From positions 3,968,001 to 4,032,000 of the forward strand of contig NZ_MODU01000004.1 of assembly GCF_001885075.1 (NCBI RefSeq): 64,000 bases of DNA, read 5' to 3'. The number at the start of each line of letters is the position of its first letter. The stretch's first letter is position 1. This document shows positions 13,109 through 33,836 of the stretch, one piece after another. The notes under the pieces are model-generated. The model had not been told where the DNA came from. It saw nothing but the letters and a program-made list of their open reading frames with translations, and did no database searches. The stretch is from Alteromonas sp. V450 (GTDB taxonomy: Bacteria > Pseudomonadota > Gammaproteobacteria > Enterobacterales > Alteromonadaceae). The translations under genes and the position numbers were made by a program.

Positions 13109-14449
13109 TTACTTTCGTTGGGGGCTTTTGGTCGCAATATCTACTATGCGAGTAGCAATGCTCGAGATGGTGGTATTTTCATTCATGGCCTGCTTTTGGA
13201 GTCTACGATACGCGTTATTTTCGCTTAACCCGAATTGCTCCATTATGACCAGCTTTGCTCGTCCAATCAGTTTTTGTTCCTGTATTGCGCGTTTAGCCTC
13301 GTCGAGCTCTCGCCCCATGTCCTCTATGTGTTGCGCCTGTGAGCGAAGTAAATCATAAAAAGAACGATGGGCAGATAAGGTTTTAGTTTGCTCGTTAAGT
13401 GTCAGCGCACTTGTATTGTCCTCTTTCGTGTCCTCTGCTAGGCCCGGCATGCTGGGGTCGAACAACAGCGTGAGGGGAGAGCCATCGGTGGCGTGTTCAT
13501 CATTAAAGCGCTTGAGTAACTGTTGGTGATTGGCCATTTCATTTTTTGCATTTTCTACCTTCGTGTTGGCCTGTTGCGCTAAGGCTTCAGTAAGTGCTAC
13601 CTCGATAGTTTGCATTGCATCAATGCGACGTGTTGCAACATCAAACCATACTTCTGATATTTCACCAGAGATAGGGCTACCGTCACCTAGTTGTGCAATC
13701 ATATTTCTAAGTTGGGCTATATCTATTGCGGCTGGGCTTTTATTGAGTGCGTCCAATGCGTCTTTATGCGCTTTGCAACTGAATTCACAAAAAATACTGA
13801 AGTGATGTTCCTGCGCATGTTGGAGGGCAGCAAGCTTTTCACACAGGCGCACATCAAAATGGGTTTCTGCGAAACCAATGGCGCCCCACGCTCGCTCTTG
13901 GCCGGCATATTCCTTGGCCTGCATGAAATTAAACAAAGCCACCAACAAACGGGTAATGGTAGGGTCGCTCGCAATATCTGCTGCTTCAAAAATAACGGTA
14001 AGCAGACTTGCGACAAGGCGGCTGTAAGCGCGTGTGGATTCTAATGGGGTTAACTGATGGTTGTTTACCTGCTCTCGCAGCCGCGGTAGATAGTCGGTAG
14101 CTTGCATGGCAAGGGTAATACTGCTTAACAAACGAGGATTACCTGTGGCGATTTCGTCAGCAAGATATAGAGATTTTAAATGACTTTTTAGCGTTGACTC
14201 TGCGCGCTCGCTTGCACTGACATACTGGTCGCGCTCAGCAAAGTAGCGCTCACCCTTTGAAGCAAGAAATATATTACTGGCTCCACGTTCTTTTTGTAAT
14301 TCATGAATAAGTTCTCGAACGGCGATAACAATACGACAGTTGCTTGAGAGCTGCTCTAGCACCGTAATTTCTGCATGCTTGGCGGCCAGCAAAAAGCGTT
14401 TAGTTGCATCACTACAAAGTGCAATGGTCTGTTCTGGTTCTTGAAGCAT
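13109..14449 (-). CDS. nasR: NIT-ANTAR nitrate-responsive transcription antiterminator (NasR type)
   Basis: This 446-aa cytoplasmic regulator has a nitrate/nitrite-sensing NIT domain (about 35-290; note HELQKERGASNIFLASKG). A coiled-coil linker (about 290-370) leads to a C-terminal ANTAR RNA-binding domain (about 375-440; AKLVIMEQFGLSENNAYRRL and the conserved AM). In Klebsiella NasR this arrangement binds nitrate and then a hairpin pair in the leader RNA, preventing termination ahead of the nas genes. Two matching leader/terminator regions occur in this window, before nirB and before nrtA. It is transcribed away from nirB and separated from it by a small membrane gene and sulP. There is no NasS/NasT pair here, so this protein is likely the sole nitrate sensor of the locus. 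Confidence 0.9.
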   Translation of the reverse strand: MLQEPEQTIALCSDATKRFLLAAKHAEITVLEQLSSNCRIVIAVRELIHELQKERGASNIFLASKGERYFAERDQYVSASERAESTLKSHLKSLYLADEIATGNPRLLSSITLAMQATDYLPRLREQVNNHQLTPLESTRAYSRLVASLLTVIFEAADIASDPTITRLLVALFNFMQAKEYAGQERAWGAIGFAETHFDVRLCEKLAALQHAQEHHFSIFCEFSCKAHKDALDALNKSPAAIDIAQLRNMIAQLGDGSPISGEISEVWFDVATRRIDAMQTIEVALTEALAQQANTKVENAKNEMANHQQLLKRFNDEHATDGSPLTLLFDPSMPGLAEDTKEDNTSALTLNEQTKTLSAHRSFYDLLRSQAQHIEDMGRELDEAKRAIQEQKLIGRAKLVIMEQFGLSENNAYRRLQKQAMNENTTISSIATRIVDIATKSPQRK

Positions 14450-14691
14450 TAGAGGCCCTGCTTATTTTGATATAAGCACTTCGCTTTTCTTTTATGTGTT
14501 TTGATTGCGAAGCTTTGCTTTACATGTAGAGGGTTAAGCAACACTTATGCCTTGTTTATAGAAACGTAACGATGGAAATTGATATAACAGTGAAATTCAC
14601 TAAGTAGTTGGTATTATTTGTTTTTTATCCATTGCACTAGGGCTGTAGGGTGAAAAAGCCGATTGAACGTCTGACTAAATGAGGGAGGGCT

Positions 14692-14724
14692 AGCAGGGTT
14701 GCATTATTATGGTGCAACCCTGCT
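14692..14724. terminator. 12-bp perfect inverted repeat beyond the 95-aa membrane gene
   Basis: AGCAGGGTTGCA / TGCAACCCTGCT form a perfect stem with a 9-nt loop, 28 bp after the stop of the minus-strand gene at 14752. Neither strand has a T run. It probably marks a transcript end. The rest of the 302-bp gap (14450-14751), which also holds the nasR promoter, shows nothing else I can identify. Confidence 0.5.
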
Positions 14725-14751
14725 GTTGTGCTTGTAGCAGGCGTCGTTCAG

Positions 14752-15465: not shown

Positions 15466-17031
15466 ATGTTCGATTTAATTACCAGTAAAGACAGCAACGT
15501 TAAAAACGACGTGCTATCAGGTATCACCGTGGCGCTTGCCTTGGTCCCTGAAGCCGTAGCATTTGCATTTGTAGCCGGCGTAGAACCCATGATAGGCCTT
15601 TATGCGGCTTTCATGATGGGCTTGATCACTTCTGCTATTGGTGGCCGTCCAGGAATGATTTCTGGTGCTACCGGCGCCATGGCCGTTGTAATGGTGGCTT
15701 TGGTTGCCCAACACGGGGTTCAGTATCTATTTGCTGCGGTTATTCTGGCGGGTTTGCTGCAAATAATGTGCGGTATCTTCAAGCTAGGGAAATTTATCCG
15801 GCTGGTGCCATACCCGGTGATGCTGGGCTTTGTAAATGGTTTGGCAATCGTAATTTTCTTGGCGCAATTAGGCCAGTTCAAAGTCACTAATGCAGCGGGT
15901 GAATTACAATGGATGGAAGGTACACTGCTGTATTGGATGCTAGGGCTTGTGGCATTAACCATGGCCATTATCTACTTGTTACCCAAGCTAACTAAGGCCG
16001 TGCCGGCGTCGCTGGTGGCAATTATTACGGTAACCCTGCTAGTGCACGGACTTGACCTGGAAGCACGCACGGTAATCGACTTCGTTCGCGACTTGCTACC
16101 TGCTGACCAGCGCGATAGTGCAACGCTAGCGGGCGAACTTCCTAGCTTTGCTATTCCTATGGTGCCGTTCACCTGGGAGACTTTCATGATCATCTTACCT
16201 ACCTCAGTGATTCTTTGTTTAGTTGGCCTAATTGAATCCCTTCTTACTCTTTCGCTAATTGATGAAATGACAGATACCCGCGGGCGCGGTAATAAAGAGT
16301 GTGTTGGCCAAGGTGTTGCAAATACCGTAAACGGTTTCTTCGGTGGTATGGGCGGTTGTGCCATGATTGGTCAAAGTATGATTAACATTAACTCTGGTGG
16401 CCGTGGCCGCTTGTCAGGTATTACCGCGGCGGTTGTTTTATTAGGCTTTATTTTATTTGCAGCTCCACTAATTGAAATGATCCCTCTTGCTGCCCTTGTC
16501 GGCGTTATGTTTGTGGTGGTTATCGCTACTTTTGAGTGGGCGTCATTCAGAATTATTCGCGGCGTAAACAAAGAAGATGCCTTTGTACTATTCCTGGTAA
16601 CAGGCGTTACCGTTATCGCCGACCTGGCTATTGCCGTTGTTGTTGGTGTTATCGTTTCAGCCCTTGTGTTTGCATGGAAACATGCTCGTCATATCGAAGC
16701 GAAGTCGCACGTTGATAACGACGGTTGGAAAGTCTATGAATTAGACGGTCCACTATTCTTCGGCTCGGTATCGCATTTCAAAGATTTATTTGATATTGCC
16801 AATGACCCACAAGATGTGGTGATCGACTTTAAAGAGTCACGTATTTGGGATTCATCAGGTATCGATGCACTAGATACTCTTGCTGACAAATACGAAGAGC
16901 AGGGTAAAAAGCTACACATTCGTCATATCAGCGATGAATGTCGTTCATTGCTTCGCAAGGCAGATAAGTTTGTTGAAATTAACGTAGTTGAAGACCCTCG
17001 CTACCGTGTAGCGACAGATAAACTGGCCTAA
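15466..17031 (+). CDS. SulP-family anion transporter with STAS domain
   Basis: This is a 521-aa inner-membrane transporter. The membrane part (about 15-405) has the SulP opening [20 protein letters not shown] and ten to twelve helices. The cytoplasmic STAS domain (about 420-515) includes [19 protein letters not shown], the usual anti-sigma-antagonist-like core with the phosphorylatable Ser region. SulP proteins carry sulfate, bicarbonate, nitrate or dicarboxylates, and sequence alone does not decide. Its place between the nitrate sensor gene and nirB makes nitrate, nitrite or bicarbonate conceivable. That is inference only. Confidence 0.88.
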
Positions 17032-17049: not shown

Positions 17050-17087
17050 TGCACCAAGTAAACACAGTTTTGCGTTTGTTTGGTGCA
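17050..17087 (+). promoter_or_regulatory. NtrC-like half-sites upstream of nirB
   Basis: TGCACCAA (17050-17057) and TTGGTGCA (17080-17087) are the two halves of the NtrC consensus dyad. Here they sit 22 bp apart, each as the strong arm of a degenerate 17-mer, with centres near 17058 and 17079 (21 bp, two turns). They lie 65-100 bp upstream of a sigma-54-like promoter. The same sequence can also fold as a hairpin after sulP, so the reading is tentative. Confidence 0.45.
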
Positions 17088-17150
17088 GTACAGAAGTCTG
17101 AATATTACTCGTTTTTCTGTAAATTAAATAAAAACAATTGCTTACGGTTT

Positions 17151-17166
17151 TGGCACTGAACTTGGA
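17151..17166 (+). promoter_or_regulatory. Sigma-54-like promoter of nirB
   Basis: TGGCACTGAACTTGGA matches the -24 element perfectly and the TTG of the -12 element. The expected final GC reads GG, which weakens the call. The inferred transcript start is near 17177, giving a leader of about 165 nt. Confidence 0.45.
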
Positions 17167-17228
17167 TAGCTATTAACGTAAAGTGTGTTTTGGTGATTTG
17201 TGTCAATCGCTGAAAATTGTGTGATTTA

Positions 17229-17269
17229 TAACACTCCGTAAAATGTGTTAGCCGACCTAAACCGTCGGC
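17229..17269 (+). promoter_or_regulatory. Tandem RNA hairpins in the nirB leader (candidate ANTAR target)
   Basis: Two adjacent stems are visible: TAACAC/GTGTTA (17229-17234 with 17245-17250) and GCCGAC/GTCGGC (17251-17256 with 17264-17269; loop CTAAACC). ANTAR antiterminators bind paired hairpins placed just before a terminator. The canonical hexanucleotide loops (A1, G4) are not clearly matched, so the binding site itself is inferred from position. Confidence 0.55.
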
Positions 17270-17283
17270 AAAATAGGCAACGA

Positions 17284-17320
17284 AGCCCGCATCAACGAAA
17301 GTTGAAGCGGGCTTTTTTTT
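17284..17320 (+). terminator. Leader attenuator terminator before nirB
   Basis: AGCCCGC-A-TCAAC / GTTGA-A-GCGGGCT form a stem with one A/A mismatch and a GAAA tetraloop, followed by eight T. It lies only 23 bp before the nirB ATG, so it ends transcripts before the operon unless antiterminated. The motif GGCAACGAAGCCC (17277-17289 region) leads into its 5' arm and recurs in the nrtA leader. Confidence 0.88.
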
Positions 17321-17342
17321 GTCCCGAAAAAAGGGGAATACC

Positions 17343-19892
17343 ATGACTTCATTGGACTCAAAAACGCAAATTGTCGTCGTAGGCAACGGCATGGTGGGGC
17401 ATCATTTTGTTGAGCAGCTTCACCAAAGCGATGCCAATGTAGAAATAACCGTTTTATGCGGCGAGTCTCGCCTCGCGTACGACCGCGTTTATCTGTCATC
17501 TTTTTTTAGTGGCGCGAGTGCTGATGACTTAGCGCTTACTACACCCGCTCAGTACGCCGAATGGGGCGTAAACGTAGTCACCAATGCCTTGGTAACCGAT
17601 ATAGACCGTGACAATAATAAAGTGACGACGTCGGAAGGGCAGGTGTTTAGCTACGACAAGCTGGTGCTAGCCACGGGCTCGTACCCATTTGTGCCACCCA
17701 TCCCTGGCAACGACCAAGAGCATTGTTTGGTTTATCGCACCATAGACGATCTACTTGCCATTGAAGCGTCAGCAGCGGTGAGCAAAGTAGGTGTAGTTGT
17801 TGGTGGTGGGCTTTTAGGCTTAGAAGCCGCTAACGCACTAAAACAAGCCGGTCTAGACACCCACGTGGTAGAGTTTGCCCCGCAGCTTATGGCGGTGCAG
17901 CTAGACCAAGCTGGTGGTAACGTTCTTAAAGATAAAATCGAAGCATTGGGCGTAACGGTTCACACCCAAAAGGCCACCCAAACTATTGAGGCCGGTGATA
18001 CCTGCCGCTATAAAATGGTGTTTGCTGACGGCACTGCACTAGAAACCGACATGATTCTTTTCTCTGCTGGTATTCGACCTTCCGATCAGCTTGGCAGAAA
18101 GTCGGCACTAACACTGGGTGAGCGCGGCGGTATTGTCATTGATAACCATTGCGTAACGTCTGATCCAAACATTTACGCTGTGGGTGAATGTGCGCTGTGG
18201 GATAACAAAATCTTTGGCCTTGTTGCACCTGGTTATACCATGGCGCGCACGGCCGTAAGTCATATAACCGGCGGCGATGCCGAGTTCGCTGGCGCAGATA
18301 TGAGTACCAAACTCAAGCTAATGGGTGTGGAAGTGGGCTCAATTGGCGATGCGCATGAACGCACAGACGGAGCGCTTAGCTACACCTACTTAAATCAGCC
18401 CGAGGGCGTGTATAAAAAGCTGGTGGTAGATAGCGAGCAAAAGCATGTACTTGGTGCGGTCCTTGTAGGTGATACTGGTGACTACGACACGCTCCTACAG
18501 TATGCGCTTAATAATATCGAATTACCTGAACACCCAGAAAGCCTGATCCTACCATCATCTGATGCGGCACCAGCGTTAGGTGCCGATGCACTACCAGACA
18601 CCGCGTCTATTTGTTCATGCCTAAATGTGACAAAGGGCGATATTGTTTCAGCCATTGAAGGCGGCTGTTGTAGCGTTGGCGATGTAAAAGGCGAAACCAA
18701 AGCCAGCACAGGGTGTGGAGGTTGTGCTGCCTTACTTAAAAATGTTGTGGATAGCGAACTTGAAAAGCGCGGTGTGGAAGTATCAAAAGCCATTTGTGAG
18801 CACTTCAACCATACCCGACAAGAACTCTTTCACATTGTTAAGGTAAACGGCATTCGCACCTTTGACGAGCTACTAGAACAGCATGGTGAAGGTCTAGGGT
18901 GTGAAATTTGTAAGCCCGCTGTCGGCTCAATTTTAGCCTCGGTGTATAACGACTACATTCTTAAGTCTTCACATCTTCCACTACAAGACACCAACGATAT
19001 CTACCTTGGCAACATGCAAAAAGATGGCACGTATTCCGTTGTACCGCGTGTACCGGGCGGGGAAATTACGCCAGAAAAATTGATTCTGCTCGGCGAAGTA
19101 GCAAAAGAATACAACCTGTACACCAAGATCACAGGTGGCCAGCGCATTGATTTATTTGGAGCGCGCGTAGAGCACTTACCTGATATCTGGGAAAAACTGG
19201 TCGCTGGTGGTTTTGAAACCGGCCACGCCTACGCGAAGGCACTGCGTACTGTTAAATCCTGTGTGGGCAGCACCTGGTGCCGCTACGGTGTTCAGGATTC
19301 TGTTGGCACTGCCATTGATTTAGAGAATCGTTACAAAGGCTTACGTGCACCGCACAAAATTAAATTTGCGGTTTCGGGGTGTACCCGTGAGTGCGCAGAA
19401 GCCCAAAGCAAAGACATTGGCGTTATTGCTACCGAGCAAGGTTGGAACCTGTATGTTTGCGGGAATGGCGGCATGAAGCCGCGACATGCAGACCTGTTTG
19501 CCACCGACCTAGATACCGAAACCCTTATAAAGTACATCGACCGCGTGCTGATGTTTTACGTCAAAACGGCTGATCGCCTACAGCGCACATCGGTGTGGAT
19601 GGACAACTTAGAAGGTGGGTTAGCTTACTTGCAAGACGTTGTAATAAACGATGCTCTTGGCATTAATGATGAGCTTGAAGCACAGATGGATACGGTGGTT
19701 GATGCTTATCAGTGCGAATGGAAAACCACCATTGAAAACCCTGAGTCGCGCAAGCGTTTCCGTCAATTTGTAAACAGCGATGCTAGCGACACCAATATTC
19801 AGTTCGTTTCAGAGCGAGGCCAGGTTCGCCCAGCTACGGAAGCTGAAAAAGTAGCAGGTAAAGATCAGTTCATTCCTGTCTCTATGGTGTAG
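17343..19892 (+). CDS. nirB: Assimilatory nitrite reductase [NAD(P)H] large subunit
   Basis: This 849-aa cytoplasmic enzyme reduces nitrite to ammonium with NAD(P)H. An N-terminal FAD/NAD oxidoreductase half (about 1-400; VVGNGMVGHHF, then VVVGGGLLGLEAANAL) passes to a BFD-like [2Fe-2S] domain (CSCLNVTKG... CGGCAA, about 420-480). The sulfite/nitrite reductase repeats follow. The siroheme-[4Fe-4S] cysteines are in SCVGSTWCRYG and GCTRECAEAQ. ATG 17343 is chosen over an upstream TTG (17319), because AAGGGG precedes the ATG and the TTG lies in the terminator T run. It is the first gene of the nitrate assimilation unit. Confidence 0.96.
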   Translation: MTSLDSKTQIVVVGNGMVGHHFVEQLHQSDANVEITVLCGESRLAYDRVYLSSFFSGASADDLALTTPAQYAEWGVNVVTNALVTDIDRDNNKVTTSEGQVFSYDKLVLATGSYPFVPPIPGNDQEHCLVYRTIDDLLAIEASAAVSKVGVVVGGGLLGLEAANALKQAGLDTHVVEFAPQLMAVQLDQAGGNVLKDKIEALGVTVHTQKATQTIEAGDTCRYKMVFADGTALETDMILFSAGIRPSDQLGRKSALTLGERGGIVIDNHCVTSDPNIYAVGECALWDNKIFGLVAPGYTMARTAVSHITGGDAEFAGADMSTKLKLMGVEVGSIGDAHERTDGALSYTYLNQPEGVYKKLVVDSEQKHVLGAVLVGDTGDYDTLLQYALNNIELPEHPESLILPSSDAAPALGADALPDTASICSCLNVTKGDIVSAIEGGCCSVGDVKGETKASTGCGGCAALLKNVVDSELEKRGVEVSKAICEHFNHTRQELFHIVKVNGIRTFDELLEQHGEGLGCEICKPAVGSILASVYNDYILKSSHLPLQDTNDIYLGNMQKDGTYSVVPRVPGGEITPEKLILLGEVAKEYNLYTKITGGQRIDLFGARVEHLPDIWEKLVAGGFETGHAYAKALRTVKSCVGSTWCRYGVQDSVGTAIDLENRYKGLRAPHKIKFAVSGCTRECAEAQSKDIGVIATEQGWNLYVCGNGGMKPRHADLFATDLDTETLIKYIDRVLMFYVKTADRLQRTSVWMDNLEGGLAYLQDVVINDALGINDELEAQMDTVVDAYQCEWKTTIENPESRKRFRQFVNSDASDTNIQFVSERGQVRPATEAEKVAGKDQFIPVSMV

Positions 19893-19928: not shown

Positions 19929-20300
19929 ATGTCAGCAGCGCAAAATGTAATGGCGTCAGAACCACAACAAGTGCAATGGCACTATGTTTGTGAGACGAAC
20001 GACTTAGTGACAAACAGTGGGGTTTGCGCCCTTGTCGACTCACAGCAAGTGGCAATTTTCAGTTTGAAGATAAACGGCGAAACCCAGGTTTTCGCCATTA
20101 GTAACTACGACCCTATTGGTAAAGCAAACGTACTCTATCGCGGGCTTCTAGGGTCGATAGGCGGTGCGCCTGTTGTCGCTTCGCCTTTATACAAAGAGCA
20201 TTACTTTCTAAAAACCGGGCTGTGTAAAGAACACGACGATGTTTCCGTCACGGCTTACGCTGTGAAGGTAGAGGGCGAAAAGGTTTTTGTCGGCGTTTAA
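19929..20300 (+). CDS. nirD: Nitrite reductase small subunit, Rieske-like
   Basis: This is a 123-aa NirD subunit with a Rieske-type beta fold. The residues that hold the Fe-S cluster in true Rieske proteins are missing: the pattern ends SPLYKEHYFLKTGLCKEHDD. This is normal for NirD, which lacks a complete CxH/CxxH pair set. It assists the NirB subunit. AGGAG lies upstream, and the gene follows nirB by 36 bp. Confidence 0.93.
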   Translation: MSAAQNVMASEPQQVQWHYVCETNDLVTNSGVCALVDSQQVAIFSLKINGETQVFAISNYDPIGKANVLYRGLLGSIGGAPVVASPLYKEHYFLKTGLCKEHDDVSVTAYAVKVEGEKVFVGV

Positions 20301-20386: not shown

Positions 20387-23260
20387 ATGAATATGCCTAC
20401 ACGACAACCCGACATGATGTCTGAACAATTAAGACAAACAACATGCCCATACTGCGGCGTAGGGTGTGGTGTAGATATCAGTTGCAACGTAAGCAAGCGT
20501 GCCACAACCCTGGACACTGTTAAAGGCACGCCAGAGCATCCCGCCAATTTTGGAAGATTGTGTGTTAAAGGAACAAACCTGCTTGAAACAAACGACTTAA
20601 ACGGACGTTTGCTTCACCCAACCATGGCAGGTCAATCGGTGGATTGGGACACGGCCACCGATGTAATTGCGGATAAGATCACCTCTACCATTGCGCAGTA
20701 TGGCGCGGATGCCGTTGCTTTTTATGTATCAGGGCAGCTTCTTACCGAAGACTATTACATTGCCAACAAGTTTATGAAAGGTTATATCGGCAGTGCCAAT
20801 ATTGATACGAATTCACGCCTATGTATGTCATCAGCCGTTGCCGCCTACAAGCGCGCGTTCGGGGAAGACGTGGTGCCATGCGATTATTCCGATCTGGAAT
20901 GTACAGATTTATTGGTAATTACGGGAAGTAATACGGCCTGGGCGCACCCAGTGCTTTTTCAACGCATTCAGCGAGCAAAGCTGAAAAACCCTGATATGAA
21001 GGTCATTGTTGTTGACCCGCGCAAAACCGAAACCTGTACCATTGCCGATTTACACCTTCCATTAAAGCCAGGTAGCGACGTGGCGCTATTTAACGGCTTA
21101 CTCAGCTATGCAAACGCACAAGGTCGAATAGACAAATCCGCCGTTGAGGCCTATGCCGAGGGGCTTGATGAAACGCTCAGTAGTGCAAATGCTTTAACGT
21201 TAGACGACGTTGCTAAAGTATGCGACCTGGACATTAACAGCATTAAGGCCTTCTTTGATGCCTTCTGCAAAGCCTCTAGCGCAATTACTTTTTATTCTAT
21301 GGGCGTAAACCAGTCTTCTGCTGGTGTGGATAAAGCCCAAGCTATTATCAACTGTCACTTAGCTATGGATTTAATTGCTAAAGACGGTTGTGGCCCGTTT
21401 TCAATTACTGGCCAGCCCAATGCCATGGGAGGGCGTGAAGTCGGTGGGTTAGCCAATATGCTAGCTGCACATATGGACCTTGAAAACCCTGAGCATATCA
21501 GCGCTGTTAAAACCTATTGGAATGCCCCTGTTATGCCTAAAGGGCAGGGGCTTAAAGCTGTCGATTTGTTTAATGCAATTGAGAGTGGAAAGGTAAAATT
21601 CGTTTGGATAATGGGGACGAACCCTGTTGTCAGTATGCCAAATCGAGGTCAAGTTGAGCGCGCACTTTCAAAATGTGACATGGTTGTAGTGTCTGATATT
21701 GTTGAGTCCAACGATACACTTAACTACGCGCACATAGCCCTCCCTGCCACCGGTTGGTCGGAAAAAGACGGCACAGTGACTAACTCAGAGCGCCGTATTT
21801 CACGTCAGCGCGGTATATTGCCTCCACCAGGTAGTGCAAAACACGACTGGCAAATCATGTGCGAAGTGGCGGGTAAAATGGGCTTTGGCGAGGCATTTAA
21901 TTTTACCCATCCGTCACAAATATTCGTTGAATACGCTGGGCTAACCGGCTATCAAAATAACGGTAAGCGTCAGTTAGACCTGTCACCTTTACAAGCGTTA
22001 AGTGAAGCTCAGTACAATGGGCTATCGCCTTTGCAGTGGCCTTTTCAAACAGTTACAAAAGCTGAGAATACGGCCAATGCTAATTTTAAAACTAACCCTA
22101 GCCTTACCAGTAAACGTCCTTTTGAAGACAAACGATTTTCAACCCCTAGCGGCAAAGCTAAACTTATTCCCGTAGCTTACAAAGCGCCATTGCAGGTGAC
22201 ATCAGACGCTTATCCTTTTATTGTGAACAGCGGGCGAGCGCGAGATCAGTGGCATACCATGACGCGCACGGGTAAAGCGGCAAAGTTACTTGCTCATATG
22301 CCAAGTGCTAACGTGCATATTAACCCTAAAGACGCTGCTGCAATGGGCGTTGAAAACGGAGATCTTGTTTCTCTTTCAAGTGCAGTATCTAAAGACGCCC
22401 CTGTTATCTATCCGGTAAGAATAGATGCGGACATGCGAAAAAAAGAAGTATTCATTCCCATTCACTGGTCGGCGCAATGGGGGTCGCACAGTAAACTAGG
22501 CGCACTTTACGCCAGCGCGGTAGACCCTATTTCAGGGCAACCTGAGTTAAAACACGCGGCGGTTGCTATTGCGCCAGTTACTTTTACTACCTACGGTAAG
22601 CTCTTTGTTTCATCAGTAAACCCATCAGTACATAATTCAGAACTTAGTTCTTCATATGAAGACGCGCTAAAGCATGTATGTGACTACTGGAATACAACAC
22701 CGCTTGAAAGCACAGAGGTGTCTTCACCTGTAAATAACTCGGATGCAGCATTATCAGTATTGAATGTTGCTTCGAACAAAGGCCGTCGAGAGTTTGTACA
22801 ATCATTAATACCTCTTCTACCGCAAAACGCGGTGCTATTGCAGTTTCATCATCATACATACTCAGTATGCCTTGCGCTTGTCGATGACACTCTCTGTTTC
22901 GCTGCGTTTTTAGGCGATAAGCCGGAAAATACGACAAAAGCTTTGGCAGCACCACACCCAGAAAGTACGTGGTCAGTACCTAACGCATGGCTTGCCAGCC
23001 TCTTAAATACACCTATTTCGGTAGAGACTCAGCGCAACTTATTGCGAGGCCAAGTCGACGACGTATTTTTAAATGGTGACGTGGTTTGTAGCTGCTTTGA
23101 AGTACGAGAAAAGACCATAACAGATGCCATCAACGGCGGTTGTTCTACAGTAGCTAGCCTAGGAGAGCAGTTAAAGTGCGGTACCAACTGCGGCTCGTGC
23201 AAGCCCGCCTTGTCTCAGCTTATAGACAAGCATTTAGTCATTGAAACCCAATCTGTATAG
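20387..23260 (+). CDS. nasA: Assimilatory nitrate reductase catalytic subunit
   Basis: This is a 957-aa cytoplasmic molybdopterin enzyme that reduces nitrate to nitrite. The [4Fe-4S] motif TCPYCGVGCGVDI starts at about residue 17, with the fourth Cys in GRLCVKG. A molybdopterin oxidoreductase domain (about 60-560) and a dinucleotide-binding domain (about 600-715; VNSGRARDQWHTMTRTGK) follow. The last 60 residues form a BFD-like [2Fe-2S] domain (CSCFEVREKT, CGTNCGSCKPAL), as in the Klebsiella-type NasA. That domain accepts electrons from an NADH-oxidising partner. No separate nasB/nasC gene is present, so electron donation may come from another protein. Confidence 0.95.
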   Translation: MNMPTRQPDMMSEQLRQTTCPYCGVGCGVDISCNVSKRATTLDTVKGTPEHPANFGRLCVKGTNLLETNDLNGRLLHPTMAGQSVDWDTATDVIADKITSTIAQYGADAVAFYVSGQLLTEDYYIANKFMKGYIGSANIDTNSRLCMSSAVAAYKRAFGEDVVPCDYSDLECTDLLVITGSNTAWAHPVLFQRIQRAKLKNPDMKVIVVDPRKTETCTIADLHLPLKPGSDVALFNGLLSYANAQGRIDKSAVEAYAEGLDETLSSANALTLDDVAKVCDLDINSIKAFFDAFCKASSAITFYSMGVNQSSAGVDKAQAIINCHLAMDLIAKDGCGPFSITGQPNAMGGREVGGLANMLAAHMDLENPEHISAVKTYWNAPVMPKGQGLKAVDLFNAIESGKVKFVWIMGTNPVVSMPNRGQVERALSKCDMVVVSDIVESNDTLNYAHIALPATGWSEKDGTVTNSERRISRQRGILPPPGSAKHDWQIMCEVAGKMGFGEAFNFTHPSQIFVEYAGLTGYQNNGKRQLDLSPLQALSEAQYNGLSPLQWPFQTVTKAENTANANFKTNPSLTSKRPFEDKRFSTPSGKAKLIPVAYKAPLQVTSDAYPFIVNSGRARDQWHTMTRTGKAAKLLAHMPSANVHINPKDAAAMGVENGDLVSLSSAVSKDAPVIYPVRIDADMRKKEVFIPIHWSAQWGSHSKLGALYASAVDPISGQPELKHAAVAIAPVTFTTYGKLFVSSVNPSVHNSELSSSYEDALKHVCDYWNTTPLESTEVSSPVNNSDAALSVLNVASNKGRREFVQSLIPLLPQNAVLLQFHHHTYSVCLALVDDTLCFAAFLGDKPENTTKALAAPHPESTWSVPNAWLASLLNTPISVETQRNLLRGQVDDVFLNGDVVCSCFEVREKTITDAINGGCSTVASLGEQLKCGTNCGSCKPALSQLIDKHLVIETQSV

Positions 23261-23272
23261 GAGCGTTAAATT

Positions 23273-24256
23273 ATGTCAATTGCATCTAGTTGGTCGTTAC
23301 CGTTTTTGCGCACCTTATTTAAACCGCAGAAGTCTTTTCTTAATCTGTTTACTCGCAATGCTATTTCGGCGAGAACCTCGACTAAAACCACAAACCAGCG
23401 CTCTGCGAATGCTAAAACTTCATCTGAGCATTCGTACCTAGATAAGTGGTTGAAGTCAGCAACTAGACACAATGAATGTCGTAAAAAGGGACACGTGTAT
23501 ATCGTAGGTGCTGGCCCTGGCGATGCCGAGTTACTTACACTGAAAGCGCTTCGTCTATTACAACAAGCCGATGTCGTGCTTTTCGATGCTTTAGTAAGTG
23601 AAGATATTCTTGCGCTAATTCCCTCTAAAGTGGTGAAAGAGTATGTAGGGAAGCGCTGCAAAAAGCACAGCTTTACTCAGGATGCTATTTGCAAACGCGT
23701 CGTTGAATTGGCAAGTGAAGGGCATACTGTCGTGCGGTTAAAAGGTGGTGATCCCGCCCTATTTGCAAGAACTTGCGAAGAAACTGATGCGCTAACAAAA
23801 GCCCACATCCCTTTTGCTATTGTTCCTGGTATTACGGCGGCATCGGGTGTGTCTGCCTATACGGGGATCCCATTAACAGACAGGCGCTGCGCTCAGTCGG
23901 TAAGCTTTATGACCGCACATTTTAAAGACGCGAACCAATGGCCTGAAATGGCGACTATGGCACAAAATGTGTTGAAGCAAACCATGGTAGTTTATATGGG
24001 GCTTAGCCGACTAGAAGGGTTATGCAAAGGCTTGGTTCACAATAAAGTGCCGAACTCATGGCCCGTAGCGGCAATTGAAAATGCTACGTCTCCCGAACAG
24101 CGCGTAATTACTGGCGTGCTTGCCGATATTTATAGCAAAGTTAACGCTGCAAATTTGACAGGGCCTACGTTACTTATATTTGGAAAAGTGGTAGAGTCTC
24201 GCCAACAAGTAAACACTCTTCTACTACATTCATCCGAGCATGCAGCAACCATTTAG
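23273..24256 (+). CDS. cobA: Uroporphyrinogen-III C-methyltransferase (siroheme branch)
   Basis: This 327-aa SAM-dependent methyltransferase makes precorrin-2 for siroheme, the cofactor of NirB. The catalytic domain begins near residue 74 with VYIVGAGPGDAELLTLKAL and includes VVRLKGGDPALFAR and the VPGITAASGVSAYTGIPLTDR loop. The first ~73 residues are an unusual Ser/Thr/Lys/Arg-rich extension not found in typical SUMT proteins. It is retained because AGGAG precedes this start. Its stop overlaps the next gene by 17 bp. The ferrochelatase and dehydrogenase activities of CysG are absent here. Confidence 0.93.
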   Translation: MSIASSWSLPFLRTLFKPQKSFLNLFTRNAISARTSTKTTNQRSANAKTSSEHSYLDKWLKSATRHNECRKKGHVYIVGAGPGDAELLTLKALRLLQQADVVLFDALVSEDILALIPSKVVKEYVGKRCKKHSFTQDAICKRVVELASEGHTVVRLKGGDPALFARTCEETDALTKAHIPFAIVPGITAASGVSAYTGIPLTDRRCAQSVSFMTAHFKDANQWPEMATMAQNVLKQTMVVYMGLSRLEGLCKGLVHNKVPNSWPVAAIENATSPEQRVITGVLADIYSKVNAANLTGPTLLIFGKVVESRQQVNTLLLHSSEHAATI

Positions 24257-30046: not shown

Positions 30047-30109
30047 TTAACATAACCATTTCTTTGCCGTAAAACGATAACCTTATGAATTAAAAGGTTT
30101 TTGTTTTTT

Positions 30110-30125
30110 TGGCACAAAGGGTGCT
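30110..30125 (+). promoter_or_regulatory. Sigma-54-like promoter of nrtA
   Basis: TGGCACAAAGGGTGCT has the diagnostic GG (30111-30112), exactly ten bases, then GC (30123-30124). The inferred start near 30136 gives a leader of about 310 nt. The remainder of 29962-30449 holds the preceding terminator and this promoter/leader; no small ORF looks real. Confidence 0.6.
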
Positions 30126-30348
30126 AACTACAATGTATAGTGGGCGCTCCTGCGTACCACTCACCCATTGCAAGACATATGAAATGGTGATGCTTGGAGA
30201 GCGTAAGGAAACACAAAAATCTCCAATTCTTCCAATAGGTGCATAATAATAAAAAATTGTGGTTTTATGAGCTATCGCTTTTTATAAACCTCCTTAAAGA
30301 TGAGGTATGTGAGTGGGATAAACCTACTTGCAACTAACAACTTGTGCG

Positions 30349-30373
30349 TTTGTAATTACTCCGATGTTACAAA
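30349..30373 (+). promoter_or_regulatory. RNA hairpin in the nrtA leader (candidate ANTAR target)
   Basis: TTTGTAA (30349-30355) pairs with TTACAAA (30367-30373). Its loop contains CTCCG, also found in the loop of the first nirB leader hairpin. A weaker stem, AGTGGG-ATAAA-CCTACT, lies upstream at 30312-30328, so a hairpin pair precedes the terminator here too. Confidence 0.5.
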
Positions 30374-30375
30374 CA

Positions 30376-30432
30376 CGGCAACGAAGCCCACTAGCGCAGA
30401 CACTTTGTGTCAACGCCAGTGGGTTTTTTTTT
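30376..30432 (+). terminator. Leader attenuator terminator before nrtA
   Basis: CCCACT (30387-30392) pairs with AGTGGG (30418-30423), with inner stems GCG/CGC and GACAC/GTGTC, followed by nine T. It ends 17 bp before the nrtA ATG. GGCAACGAAGCCC just before and within the 5' arm is identical to the motif in the nirB leader. Confidence 0.87.
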
Positions 30433-30449
30433 GGCTACGAGGAACACGT

Positions 30450-31859
30450 ATGACTGGATTAAAAAGAACATCAATATTAAAACGCCTACAGGTGGTGAGT
30501 AAGAGTGTGTGTGCGGCGTTAGTGGTTTCGGTTGCAACGTTTTCAACGTCGGCAATGGCACAACAACAAACCGTTGGCTGGCCTGAAAAAGAAGAATTAA
30601 AGTTTGGTTTTATAAAACTGACAGATATGGCGCCGCTTGCTGTAGCGTACGAAAAAGGTTTTTTCGAAGACGAAGGGTTATACGTCACATTAGAAGCGCA
30701 AGCTAACTGGAAAGTGCTGCTAGACAGGGTTATTGATGGTCAGCTAGATGGTGCTCACATGCTTGCAGGTCAACCACTTGGCGCGACAATTGGCTTTGGT
30801 ACGGAATCTCATGTAGTTACCGCGTTTAGTATGGATCTAAATGGTAATGGCATTACAGTCTCGAACGAAATTTGGGACAAAATGAAGGCGCACATTCCAC
30901 AAGAAAATGGCAAGCCTGTGCATCCCATTAAGGCTGATTACCTAAAGCCGGTTGTTGATGAATACCGCAACGCCGGGAAACCTTTCAATATGGGCATGGT
31001 ATTTCCTGTATCTACTCACAACTACGAGCTGCGCTATTGGCTAGCAGCAGGTGGCATTCACCCAGGGTACTACGCGCCTCACAAGGGGGATACTGCAGGT
31101 CAAATCGATGCACAAGCACTATTGTCTGTAACGCCACCACCACAAATGCCAGCGACCATGGAAGCGGGCACTATTTATGGCTATTGCGTAGGTGAGCCAT
31201 GGAACCAGCAAGCGGTATTTAAAGGTATTGGTGTACCTGTGATCACCGATTATGAAATCTGGAAAAACAACCCAGAAAAAGTATTTGGCGTAAGCCAAGG
31301 CTGGGCTGAAAAGTACCCTAATACTCACATTCGTGTGGTTAAAGCATTAATTCGTGCAGCAATGTGGCTGGATGAAAATGACAATGCTAACCGCCCTGAA
31401 GCAGTAAAAATTCTTGCCAAGAGCAACTACGTTGGCGCAGACGAAGATGTACTGGCTAACAGCATGACAGGGACTTTTGAGTACGAAAAAGGCGACAAGC
31501 GTGAAGTACCAGATTTCAACGTATTCTTCCGCTACAACGCCACTTACCCGTATTACAGTGATGCAATTTGGTACCTTACTCAAATGCGTCGTTGGGGCCA
31601 AATTTCTGAAGCTAAATCTGACGATTGGTACAAGGAAACCGCGAAAAAAGTATACAAGCCAGAGGTTTATGCTCAGGCGGCAAAAGCGCTAATAGCAGAG
31701 GGTAAAGCAAAAGCATCTGATTTCCCTGAGTTTGGAACGGAAACGGGTTATAAACCTCCTCAGAGTGAATTTATTGACGGTGTGACGTTTGATGGAAGCA
31801 AACCGAACGCTTACTTAGAGCAGTTCGACATTGGTCTTAAAGGCGACACTGTACTGTAA
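30450..31859 (+). CDS. nrtA: Nitrate ABC transporter substrate-binding protein
   Basis: This is a 469-aa periplasmic nitrate-binding protein of the NrtA/NasF/CmpA family. A signal peptide of about 37 residues ends at SAMA. The mature protein begins with the family-typical [20 protein letters not shown], then [19 protein letters not shown], and later [12 protein letters not shown], which lines the anion pocket. The start at 30450 follows CGAGGA. The longer frame from 30300 would read through the attenuator terminator. It heads the nrtABC-porin unit. A GC-rich hairpin after it probably raises its level over the membrane parts. Confidence 0.94.
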
Positions 31860-31874
31860 GTGTCTTGTAGAACA

Positions 31875-31904
31875 GCCCCGCCGTTGCCTTTGTGAAGGCG
31901 GGGC
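31875..31904 (+). promoter_or_regulatory. Intercistronic GC-rich hairpin between nrtA and nrtB
   Basis: GCCCCGCC pairs with GGCGGGGC across a 14-nt loop, 16 bp after the nrtA stop, without a T run. Such elements after binding-protein genes commonly stabilise the upstream message or partly reduce read-through. Confidence 0.6.
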
Positions 31905-31948
31905 ACTTACACAGCGCATTAGCGCATACAAAGAGTCAGGAGCAAGCA

Positions 31949-32944
31949 ATGAGCAAGATGACAACCATTCTTCGCCTTCCATCATCGCCGTCAAACGCCA
32001 ACTCTGTGTTGAGCCGTTTATATCAATCCATGCCTGCGTTGCTGTTGCCCGTTATCGGCTTGCTAATGTTCTTGGCCATTTGGAATGGCGTTGCAAAGAG
32101 TATCGACACGTCGTTAGGGCAGTTTCCAGGGCCTGCACAGGTTTTTGAGCAAGCAGGTGCCTTATTGGATGAGCACGTTGCTCAGCGTGAGAAAGCGGAC
32201 GCTTTCTATCAACGTCAAGAAGAAAGAAATGCAGCGCGTGTAGCGCAAGACCCTACATACCAGCCTAAAATTAGAGAGTTTACAGGGGCGCCTACTTTCT
32301 TCGACCAAATATGGACAAGCCTCTACACTGTCATGGTTGGCTTTTTTATCGCGTCAGTAGTGGCAGTGCCTGTGGGTATTTTATGTGGTTTAAGCAAATC
32401 GGCATACACAGCGATAAACCCGCTTATTCAGTTATTTAAGCCAGTTTCACCGCTAGCATGGTTGCCGTTAGTTACTATGGTGGTTAGTGCGCTTTATGTC
32501 AGTGACGACCCAGCTTTTTCTAAGTCCTTTGTAACGTCTGCCTTTACCGTTTCACTTTGCTGCTTGTGGCCAACGCTAATAAATACCGCGGTGGGCGTAT
32601 CAAACATTGAAAAAGACCTCATCAATGTGAGTAAAGTGCTGCGTCTTACCCCTTTTGCACACCTGACCAAGATAGTACTGCCGTCTTCTATTCCCATGAT
32701 TTTTACCGGACTTAGATTGTCCCTTGGTATTGGCTGGATGGTACTCATCGCTGCCGAAATGCTTGCTCAAAACCCTGGTTTAGGAAAATTTGTATGGGAC
32801 GAATTTCAAAACGGAAGTTCAGAGTCATTAGCCAGGATCATGGTTGCAGTGCTTACTATTGGGGCAATTGGTTTTGTTCTTGACCGCTTAATGCTATCAA
32901 TTCAGCGCGCGGTTAGCTGGGATAAGTCGAGCGTATTACGCTAA
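31949..32944 (+). CDS. nrtB: Nitrate ABC transporter permease
   Basis: This is a 331-aa inner-membrane permease. A first helix lies at about 28-46, followed by a charged loop (about 60-115). The permease domain (about 125-325) carries the coupling element EMLAQNPGLGKFVWDEFQNG, typical of nitrate/sulfonate/taurine permeases. ATG 31949 is chosen because AGGAG precedes it; the in-frame reading from 31892 adds 19 residues with no ribosome site. It lies between nrtA and the ATPase gene. Confidence 0.92.
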   Translation: MSKMTTILRLPSSPSNANSVLSRLYQSMPALLLPVIGLLMFLAIWNGVAKSIDTSLGQFPGPAQVFEQAGALLDEHVAQREKADAFYQRQEERNAARVAQDPTYQPKIREFTGAPTFFDQIWTSLYTVMVGFFIASVVAVPVGILCGLSKSAYTAINPLIQLFKPVSPLAWLPLVTMVVSALYVSDDPAFSKSFVTSAFTVSLCCLWPTLINTAVGVSNIEKDLINVSKVLRLTPFAHLTKIVLPSSIPMIFTGLRLSLGIGWMVLIAAEMLAQNPGLGKFVWDEFQNGSSESLARIMVAVLTIGAIGFVLDRLMLSIQRAVSWDKSSVLR

Positions 32945-32960
32945 TTTTGAGGAGAAATTT

Positions 32961-33836
32961 ATGCACACTAAACACTTAGAGTTAGAGCAGGTAGGTATCG
33001 ACTTCCCAACACCGAAAGGGCCATTTACTGCGCTTCAAGATGTAAATCTTAAAATTAGCAAAGGTGAATTTGTATCACTAATTGGTCACTCGGGTTGCGG
33101 TAAATCGACGGTTTTGAACATCATTGCCGGCTTGCACCAAGCAACTACAGGCGGTGTTATTTTAGATGGTGCTGAAGTAAAACAGCCTGGGCCAGAGCGC
33201 GCCGTAGTGTTTCAAAACCACTCTTTGCTGCCTTGGCTTACGGTATATAAAAATGTAGAGCTGGCCGTGAAATCGACCATGCGGGGCAAGAGTAAAAGCG
33301 AGATGCGTGACTGGATAATGCATAACTTAGAGCTTGTACACATGACCCACGCTCTCGACAAACTGCCTAGTGAAATTTCAGGTGGTATGAAGCAGCGAGT
33401 GGGCATTGCGCGCGCGCTGGCTATGGAACCTAAAGTACTATTGATGGACGAACCGTTCGGTGCACTAGACGCGTTAACGCGCGCTCACCTTCAAGACTCA
33501 CTAATGGAAATTCATGCTGATTTGGGTAATACCGTCATCATGATAACGCATGATGTGGATGAGGCCGTTTTACTATCTGATCGCATTGTTATGATGAACA
33601 ATGGTCCTGCAGCCACCATCGGCGAAATCTTGGATATTGAATTGCCGCGTCCACGAGACAGGTTGGCACTTGCAGACAATAAACAATACAACCACTACCG
33701 ACATGAGGTATTAACCTTCCTTTACGATAAGCAGAAAAAGGTTGAAACCGTTACTTCACGTACTAACAACGGAACATCAAAATCCAGCGGGGTGACATCT
33801 GAAAAAAAAGACGCTAAAAAATCAGATGCTGCCTAG
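32961..33836 (+). CDS. nrtC: Nitrate ABC transporter ATP-binding protein
   Basis: This is a 291-aa ATPase. Walker A is GHSGCGKST, Q-loop VFQNHSLLPWL, signature ISGGMKQR, Walker B VLLMDEPFGALDALT and switch His ITHDVDEA. It resembles NrtD/NasD. It lacks the extra substrate-binding-like C-terminal domain of cyanobacterial NrtC, so the gene symbol is approximate. The last 45 residues are Lys/Ser/Thr-rich. It starts 16 bp after nrtB behind GAGGAG. Confidence 0.9.
   Translation: MHTKHLELEQVGIDFPTPKGPFTALQDVNLKISKGEFVSLIGHSGCGKSTVLNIIAGLHQATTGGVILDGAEVKQPGPERAVVFQNHSLLPWLTVYKNVELAVKSTMRGKSKSEMRDWIMHNLELVHMTHALDKLPSEISGGMKQRVGIARALAMEPKVLLMDEPFGALDALTRAHLQDSLMEIHADLGNTVIMITHDVDEAVLLSDRIVMMNNGPAATIGEILDIELPRPRDRLALADNKQYNHYRHEVLTFLYDKQKKVETVTSRTNNGTSKSSGVTSEKKDAKKSDAA

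Follow-up and report, generated by a model that had tools for sequence, protein, structure and literature searches.

A predicted nitrate-responsive attenuator of the NasR-ANTAR kind, with one consensus hexaloop, upstream of nirB in Alteromonas sp. V450

Introduction

The assimilatory nitrite reductase gene nirB of Alteromonas sp. V450 lies directly behind a strong terminator. Alteromonas is a common marine heterotroph and a competitor of diatoms for nitrate (PMC4899447). An original prediction proposed that a NIT-ANTAR protein encoded nearby controls this leader, and that the RNA recognised may be a variant. ANTAR targets are defined by hexaloops with A at position 1 and G at position 4, a closing C:G pair and overlap with a terminator (PMC3369931, PMC7496416), the evidence on hexaloop features in PMC7496416 coming from a NasR selection experiment. 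No report of NasR/ANTAR control in Alteromonas was found in the literature; an earlier listing in the supplementary tables of PMC3369931 is possible. The DNA analysed, here called the window, was a stretch of 64,000 nt from contig NZ_MODU01000004.1 of assembly GCF_001885075.1 (positions 3,968,001-4,032,000, forward strand).

Results

Promoter, hairpins and terminator of the nirB leader

17050-17055, plus strand: NtrC-like half-site TGCACC, 100 bp 5' of the -24 element; near -100 in most nirB orthologues
17082-17087, plus strand: inverted NtrC-like half-site GGTGCA, 68 bp 5' of the -24 element; near -68 in most nirB orthologues
17150-17167, plus strand: sigma-54-type promoter TTGGCAC-N5-TTGGAT, conserved in 41/41 nirB leaders; predicted transcription start near 17176
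17192-17211, plus strand: upstream leader hairpin GGUGAUU-UGUGUC-AAUCGCU (predicted fold), with similar sequence in the nearest relatives only
17229-17250, plus strand: first hairpin of the original prediction, 10-base loop (predicted fold), conserved in the nearest relatives only
17251-17269, plus strand: P1-position hairpin GCCGAC-CUAAACC-GUCGGC, not an ANTAR hexaloop (predicted fold, -8.8 kcal/mol)
17276-17287, plus strand: P2, a hairpin with the canonical ANTAR hexaloop, GGC-AACGAA-GCC, present in 40/40 fetched nirB orthologues; putative antiterminator and site of NasR binding
17282-17320, plus strand: intrinsic terminator overlapping the 3' arm of P2, fold -22.8 kcal/mol followed by eight T, kept in the fetched orthologues
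17343-19892, plus strand: nirB, assimilatory nitrite reductase large subunit (NCBIfam TIGR02374, 1099 bits)

The main elements expected of this leader were recovered. The sigma-54-like promoter predicted at 17151 was present as a -24/-12 element, the two hairpins predicted at 17229-17269 folded separately at 17229-17250 and 17251-17269, and the strong terminator predicted close before the gene was found to end 22 bases 5' of the nirB ATG (17343). The leader as a whole (17175-17321) folded at -48.3 kcal/mol, compared with -31.7 kcal/mol (sd 3.6) for shuffled sequences (z -4.6). The stem of the P1-position hairpin showed compensating substitutions among relatives, while its loop varied freely.

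The promoter pattern TGGCA[C/T]-N6-TG was kept in 41/41 nirB leaders and in 41/41 leaders of nrtA, a gene described below, and RpoN is encoded in the genome. The mean best promoter score of the nirB leaders was 20.2 against 14.9 (sd 1.2) for shuffles, by a scheme that favours this pattern itself and was applied likewise to the shuffles. The -12 base, following TTG, was T, G or A in 39/41 nirB leaders, mostly T or G; the usual base at this position of sigma-54 promoters is C. The upstream motifs TGCACC and GGTGCA resemble NtrC half-sites and presumably act as such. They are inverted and lie ~32 bp apart, or three helical turns, both at 17050-17087 and in most nirB orthologues, at a fixed distance from the -24 element, a spacing that exceeds that of the usual NtrC dyad.

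A canonical hexaloop overlaps the terminator

The loops of this leader had been described as matching the ANTAR hexaloop poorly. That description was taken from the two upstream hairpins and overlooked P2, an exact match to the consensus (A1, G4 and the closing C:G pair) that folds between the second of them and the terminator. In the nirB and nrtA leaders of the window, as in the orthologous leaders that were read, the terminator's 5' arm includes the 3' arm of P2, GCC, and the two structures are mutually exclusive. P2 alone folded at only -2.8 kcal/mol against -22.8 kcal/mol for the terminator; therefore a protein would be needed to shift the balance.

In one sequence alone such a motif is not striking, as the hairpin pattern had four matches in the window against 1.6 expected and, when followed by a T-run, five matches in the whole genome, three of them unrelated. 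Orthologues were therefore decisive for its assessment. nirB was found in 48 of 60 Alteromonas genomes, seven near-duplicate genomes standing outside the set of 40 nirB leaders. Orthologous leaders devoid of the hairpin, which would count against the proposal, were looked for, and P2 was present in 40/40: a C:G-closed A-N-N-G hexaloop occurred at the same place, ~30 bases 5' of the T-run, in every fetched nirB leader of the genus. The stem and loop positions 1, 2 and 4 were 100% conserved and positions 3, 5 and 6 were 80-98% conserved, compared with ~45-50% for the preceding bases. Across the genus only the 12-base P2 and the terminator were conserved in the nirB leader. P2 with A1, G4 and the closing C:G pair was found in all 80 fetched orthologous leaders (40 nirB and 40 nrtA), and this invariance in two operons indicates that it is a real element.

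Gene neighbourhood and predicted regulon

19929-20300, plus strand: nirD, nitrite reductase small subunit (NCBIfam TIGR02378)
20387-23260, plus strand: NasA-type nitrate reductase, a molybdopterin oxidoreductase related to the NasC/NasA models, under their cut-offs
23273-24256, plus strand: uroporphyrinogen-III methyltransferase (siroheme; NCBIfam TIGR01469)
30109-30126, plus strand: sigma-54-type promoter TTGGCAC-N5-GTGCTA of the nrtA leader (motif scan)
30348-30374, plus strand: P1-position hairpin of the nrtA leader, loop not ANNGNN, with compensated stem changes in relatives
30377-30388, plus strand: second P2, GGC-AACGAA-GCC, identical to that of nirB, in all 40 fetched nrtA orthologues
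30383-30432, plus strand: intrinsic terminator overlapping the second P2, fold -24.9 kcal/mol followed by nine T
30450-33836, plus strand: nrtABC-type nitrate ABC transporter genes (NMT1_2, BPD_transp_1, ABC_tran)
556776-556789 of contig C4, outside the window, minus strand: third ANTAR-type leader, GGAC-AAAGGC-GTCC, with terminator and sigma-54-type promoter, before a nirC-type gene and then a PP2C-type gene

A third leader type, typically GGAT-AAAGGC-GTCC, occurred in other Alteromonas clades, Microbulbifer and Pseudoalteromonas. Where loci were read, in Alteromonas and Pseudoalteromonas, the genes behind it were a nirC-type (FNT) gene and then a PP2C-type gene, these names being taken from the sequences without a domain search. 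The P2 pattern of the nirC leaders from other genomes had one exact match in Alteromonas sp. V450, which was followed by a terminator and nirC. The genome thus has three predicted targets, before nirB, nrtA and nirC, and these match the kinds of gene needed: a nitrite channel, a nitrate importer and the reductases.

Several further features of these loci were recorded. At its C-terminus (residues 899-947) the NasA-type nitrate reductase has a BFD-like [2Fe-2S] domain, a domain type also present in NirB. A SulP/STAS transporter gene (BicA-like, 15466-17031) lies between nasR and nirB and adjoins nirB also in A. aestuariivivens and A. confluentis; its cargo could be nitrate, bicarbonate or another anion. 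A long inverted repeat of 16 pairs (14691-14725, AGCAGGGTTGCA) separates nasR from a small membrane-protein-like frame and has no clear T-run behind it. The sequence ACAAYTT, sometimes 3' of GCGCT, recurs directly 5' of the P1-position hairpin in nrtA and many nirB leaders of Alteromonas. In the nrtA leader of locus L142 (minus strand, ~19716-19731) two hexaloop hairpins overlap, TTGC-AACGGG-GCAA and GGGC-AACGAA-GCCC. Finally, ACUCCG is common to the loops of the upstream hairpins at 17230-17249 and 30348-30374; the idea that it marks a variant recognition loop was abandoned, because it is restricted to the nearest relatives.

The NIT-ANTAR protein

13109-14449, minus strand: NIT-ANTAR protein, 446 aa, proposed nitrate/nitrite-responsive antiterminator (Pfam NIT 9e-52, ANTAR 8e-17)

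The protein has the domain composition of NasR, with Pfam NIT at residues 46-290 and ANTAR at 384-436; its best PDB match was Klebsiella NasR (4AKK, E 1e-36), and it was the only ANTAR match in the whole genome. Of the 60 Alteromonas genomes, 47 encoded an ANTAR protein, comprising 47 of the 48 with nirB and none of the 12 without it, and its gene lay nearby on the same contig; the lone nirB genome lacking one is a highly fragmented assembly. This co-occurrence can stem in part from linkage inside one nitrate gene cluster.

Among the RNA-binding residues of NasR (Klebsiella numbering), Lys347, the aromatic residue 362 (Tyr) and Asn373 were kept, while Arg340 and Arg366 were both replaced by Gln. 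Arg340 is reported to be nearly invariant and, in Klebsiella, indispensable for binding RNA (PMC7496416), and the matching residue of EutV, Arg142, makes contact with RNA and bridges the ANTAR dimer through hydrogen bonding (PMC8934654). With Gln at both positions, RNA binding by the Alteromonas protein is therefore not to be assumed. The position of Arg340 was occupied by Gln, His or Leu in every resolved protein of Alteromonadaceae and Pseudoalteromonas, and by Arg in Enterobacterales, Microbulbifer, Motiliproteus, Thalassolituus, Marinobacter and Azospirillum. The NIT-ANTAR proteins of strain XY-R5 (L143) and Paraglaciecola hydrolytica (L153) have Lys at the position of NasR Asn373, and a search within 10 kb found a P2 leader in neither.

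The first hexaloop is absent

In enterobacterial NasR targets the first hairpin has a conserved hexaloop, CC-AAYGGC-GG, and 17 leaders with this motif upstream of P2 were extracted. In leaders of Klebsiella, Pantoea and Erwinia the canonical first hexaloop was recovered by the same analysis. At the P1 position of the nirB leader the loop is a heptaloop, CUAAACC, and not an A1/G4 hexaloop. By folding, an A-N-N-G hexaloop at this position was detected in only 1 of 96 distinct Alteromonas leaders; a scan of whole leaders upstream of P2 gave 3/41 for nirB and 6/41 for nrtA, four of the latter six being the same weak distal hairpin. A search for a canonical P1 farther upstream in the leaders yielded nothing conserved.

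The covariance search suggested in the original prediction was run with a model built from 15 dual-hairpin leaders, mostly enterobacterial. The nirB and nrtA leaders were not found, and only the second-hairpin half of the model matched in most Alteromonas nirC leaders, including that of V450. The best match in the window was the NtrC-like inverted repeat, not the leader, and was discarded as support. P2 and the terminator were the only elements common to the nirB, nrtA and nirC targets. The nirB leader RNA is classed as a variant of the dual-hairpin ANTAR targets because the first hexaloop is lacking. A variant had been suggested as possible and does exist, but it is a different one from that envisaged, the first of two canonical hexaloops being absent rather than the loops being generally divergent.

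A rather unlikely reading is that the P1-position hairpin is in fact a second ANTAR site, its loop relaxed or altered; these leaders would then be ordinary dual-hairpin targets whose first loop has drifted. The P1-position hairpin of nrtA is strong (mean -9.6 kcal/mol against -2.1 for shuffles), its stem is upheld by compensating changes, a weaker counterpart exists in nirB (-5.8 against -2.4 kcal/mol), and leaders of Microbulbifer and Motiliproteus keep remnants of the ACGGC type. However, the P1-position loops share neither size nor sequence, the P1 hairpin of the nirC leaders does not exceed chance (-2.1 against -3.2 kcal/mol), and A-N-N-G hexaloops 5' of P2 are as rare as the counts above indicate.

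Loss of the first hexaloop was compared with the state of Arg340. Under a uniform rule, a C:G-closed A-N-N-G first hairpin was present in 19 of the 25 genomes that have Arg340 and in which a leader was detected, compared with 1 of the 40 without Arg340 (1/70 leaders). A single change on the protein tree accounts for the absence of Arg340 (support 99/97); it is therefore one event and not independent evidence of co-evolution. The link between the two losses, both of which fall in one lineage, is only suggestive, and perhaps the loss of Arg340 followed the onset of first-hexaloop decay in the wider clade. Arg366 was tried as a correlate and set aside as weaker than Arg340, since one Alteromonadaceae protein (L150) keeps Arg366 without P1. 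In vivo, EutV depends on the pair of hexaloops (PMC3369931, PMC8934654). For Klebsiella NasR, binding to P2 alone was ~12-fold weaker than to the two hairpins together (PMC7496416). Tentatively, and with not quite an even chance of being correct, we suggest that antitermination by NasR in Alteromonadaceae and Pseudoalteromonas relies on one consensus hexaloop, the upstream one having been lost along with Arg340, so that the protein would act without the recruitment hairpin that EutV requires.

Discussion

Proposed mechanism and its alternatives

From these comparisons of sequence, the nirB leader of Alteromonas sp. V450 very probably acts as a transcription attenuator that responds to nitrate through a NasR-type ANTAR protein. 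The promoter motif, the overlap of P2 with the terminator, the conservation of this overlap, the predicted regulon and the co-occurrence are established; from them we infer protein-RNA binding, nitrate dependence and activation by NtrC. Under nitrogen limitation the sigma-54 promoter, probably activated by NtrC, would start the leader RNA near 17176. When nitrate and nitrite are absent the terminator would form and transcription would halt ~145 nt in. When either is present the NIT domain of the protein would free its ANTAR domain to bind and hold P2; the terminator could not then form, because the 3' arm of P2 is common to both, and polymerase would continue into nirBD-nasA. The same protein would likewise govern nrtABC (through 30377-30432) and the distant nirC operon by the same device. 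Nitrate-use genes in this strain thus appear to be under a NasR-type protein that grips a small hairpin and blocks a terminator.

The proposal that the NIT-ANTAR protein controls the nirB leader is supported as regards NasR-type control of the terminator, although not in its account of the loops. This control is favoured by the NIT and ANTAR domains, the status of the protein as sole ANTAR protein of the genome, the match to 4AKK, the co-occurrence with nirB and the canonical hexaloop overlapping the terminator. It is very unlikely that the terminator works independently of the protein, setting a constant level of readthrough or ending upstream transcription, with P2 incidental. The terminator is strong by itself and the tie between protein and RNA is a predicted one, but loop letters A1 and A2 of P2, which the terminator does not need, are invariant or nearly so in nirB and nrtA leaders, the same P2 element stands before other operons, and the promoter is sited 3' of the preceding gene and 5' of the terminator. 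That another signal reads this long structured leader before molybdoenzyme and siroheme genes, through a riboswitch (for molybdenum cofactor or siroheme, for example) or a leader peptide, is scarcely credible, as no Rfam family, ANTAR included, reached threshold (sub-threshold matches to Bp2_287, Trp_leader and rli40 were judged chance), the sole ATG frame in the leader is ATG-TGT-stop at 17243, and conservation across the genus is limited to the 12-base P2 and the terminator.

Significance

For nitrate use in Alteromonas, a regulator, a signal and three RNA targets can provisionally be named. The structural study of EutV did not settle why a pair of hexaloops is required if a dimer engages a single loop at a time (PMC8934654). 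Naturally occurring targets with one conserved hexaloop, together with a protein lacking a supposedly essential residue, make this question directly testable in a genetically tractable bacterium; with one of the two Klebsiella recognition loops present, the system is a natural test case for the workings of the ANTAR protein family.

Comparison with known systems

The closest known system is NasR and nasFEDCBA of Klebsiella (PMC7496416; K. pneumoniae locus L198), which shares the NIT-ANTAR protein, the sigma-54 promoter, the leader hairpins, a P2 hexaloop overlapping an intrinsic terminator and, downstream, genes for a nitrate transporter and for nitrite/nitrate reductase. As a positive control, the Klebsiella nas leader gave the same order of sigma-54 promoter, hairpins, terminator and nrtA-type gene as in Alteromonas; its first gene is of the same type as nrtA of the operon at 30450-33836, and the logic of the nirB leader is that of Klebsiella nasF. 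The systems differ in that Klebsiella P1 is a consensus hexaloop (GAACC-AAUGGC-GGUUC), absent from the Alteromonas leaders, that P2 is GGAU-AAAGGC-GUCC in Klebsiella and GGC-AACGAA-GCC before Alteromonas nirB, that one operon in Klebsiella compares with three separate operons in V450, and that Arg340 and Arg366 of Klebsiella NasR are replaced by Gln in the V450 protein.

The eut leaders read by EutV in Enterococcus (PMC3369931, PMC8934654) likewise have a P2-type hexaloop with A1 and G4 that overlaps a terminator. EutV, however, is a phosphorylated response regulator for which both hexaloops are needed in vivo. Unlike Klebsiella nasF, the Alteromonas leaders have only one consensus hexaloop, with an upstream hairpin that varies between genes. 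NasS-NasT of Paracoccus and Bradyrhizobium (PMC3795266, PMC6759348) resembles the Alteromonas system in nitrate-responsive ANTAR antitermination of nitrate genes, but comprises two proteins, with NasS as a separate sensor, whereas the V450 genome encodes no second ANTAR protein.
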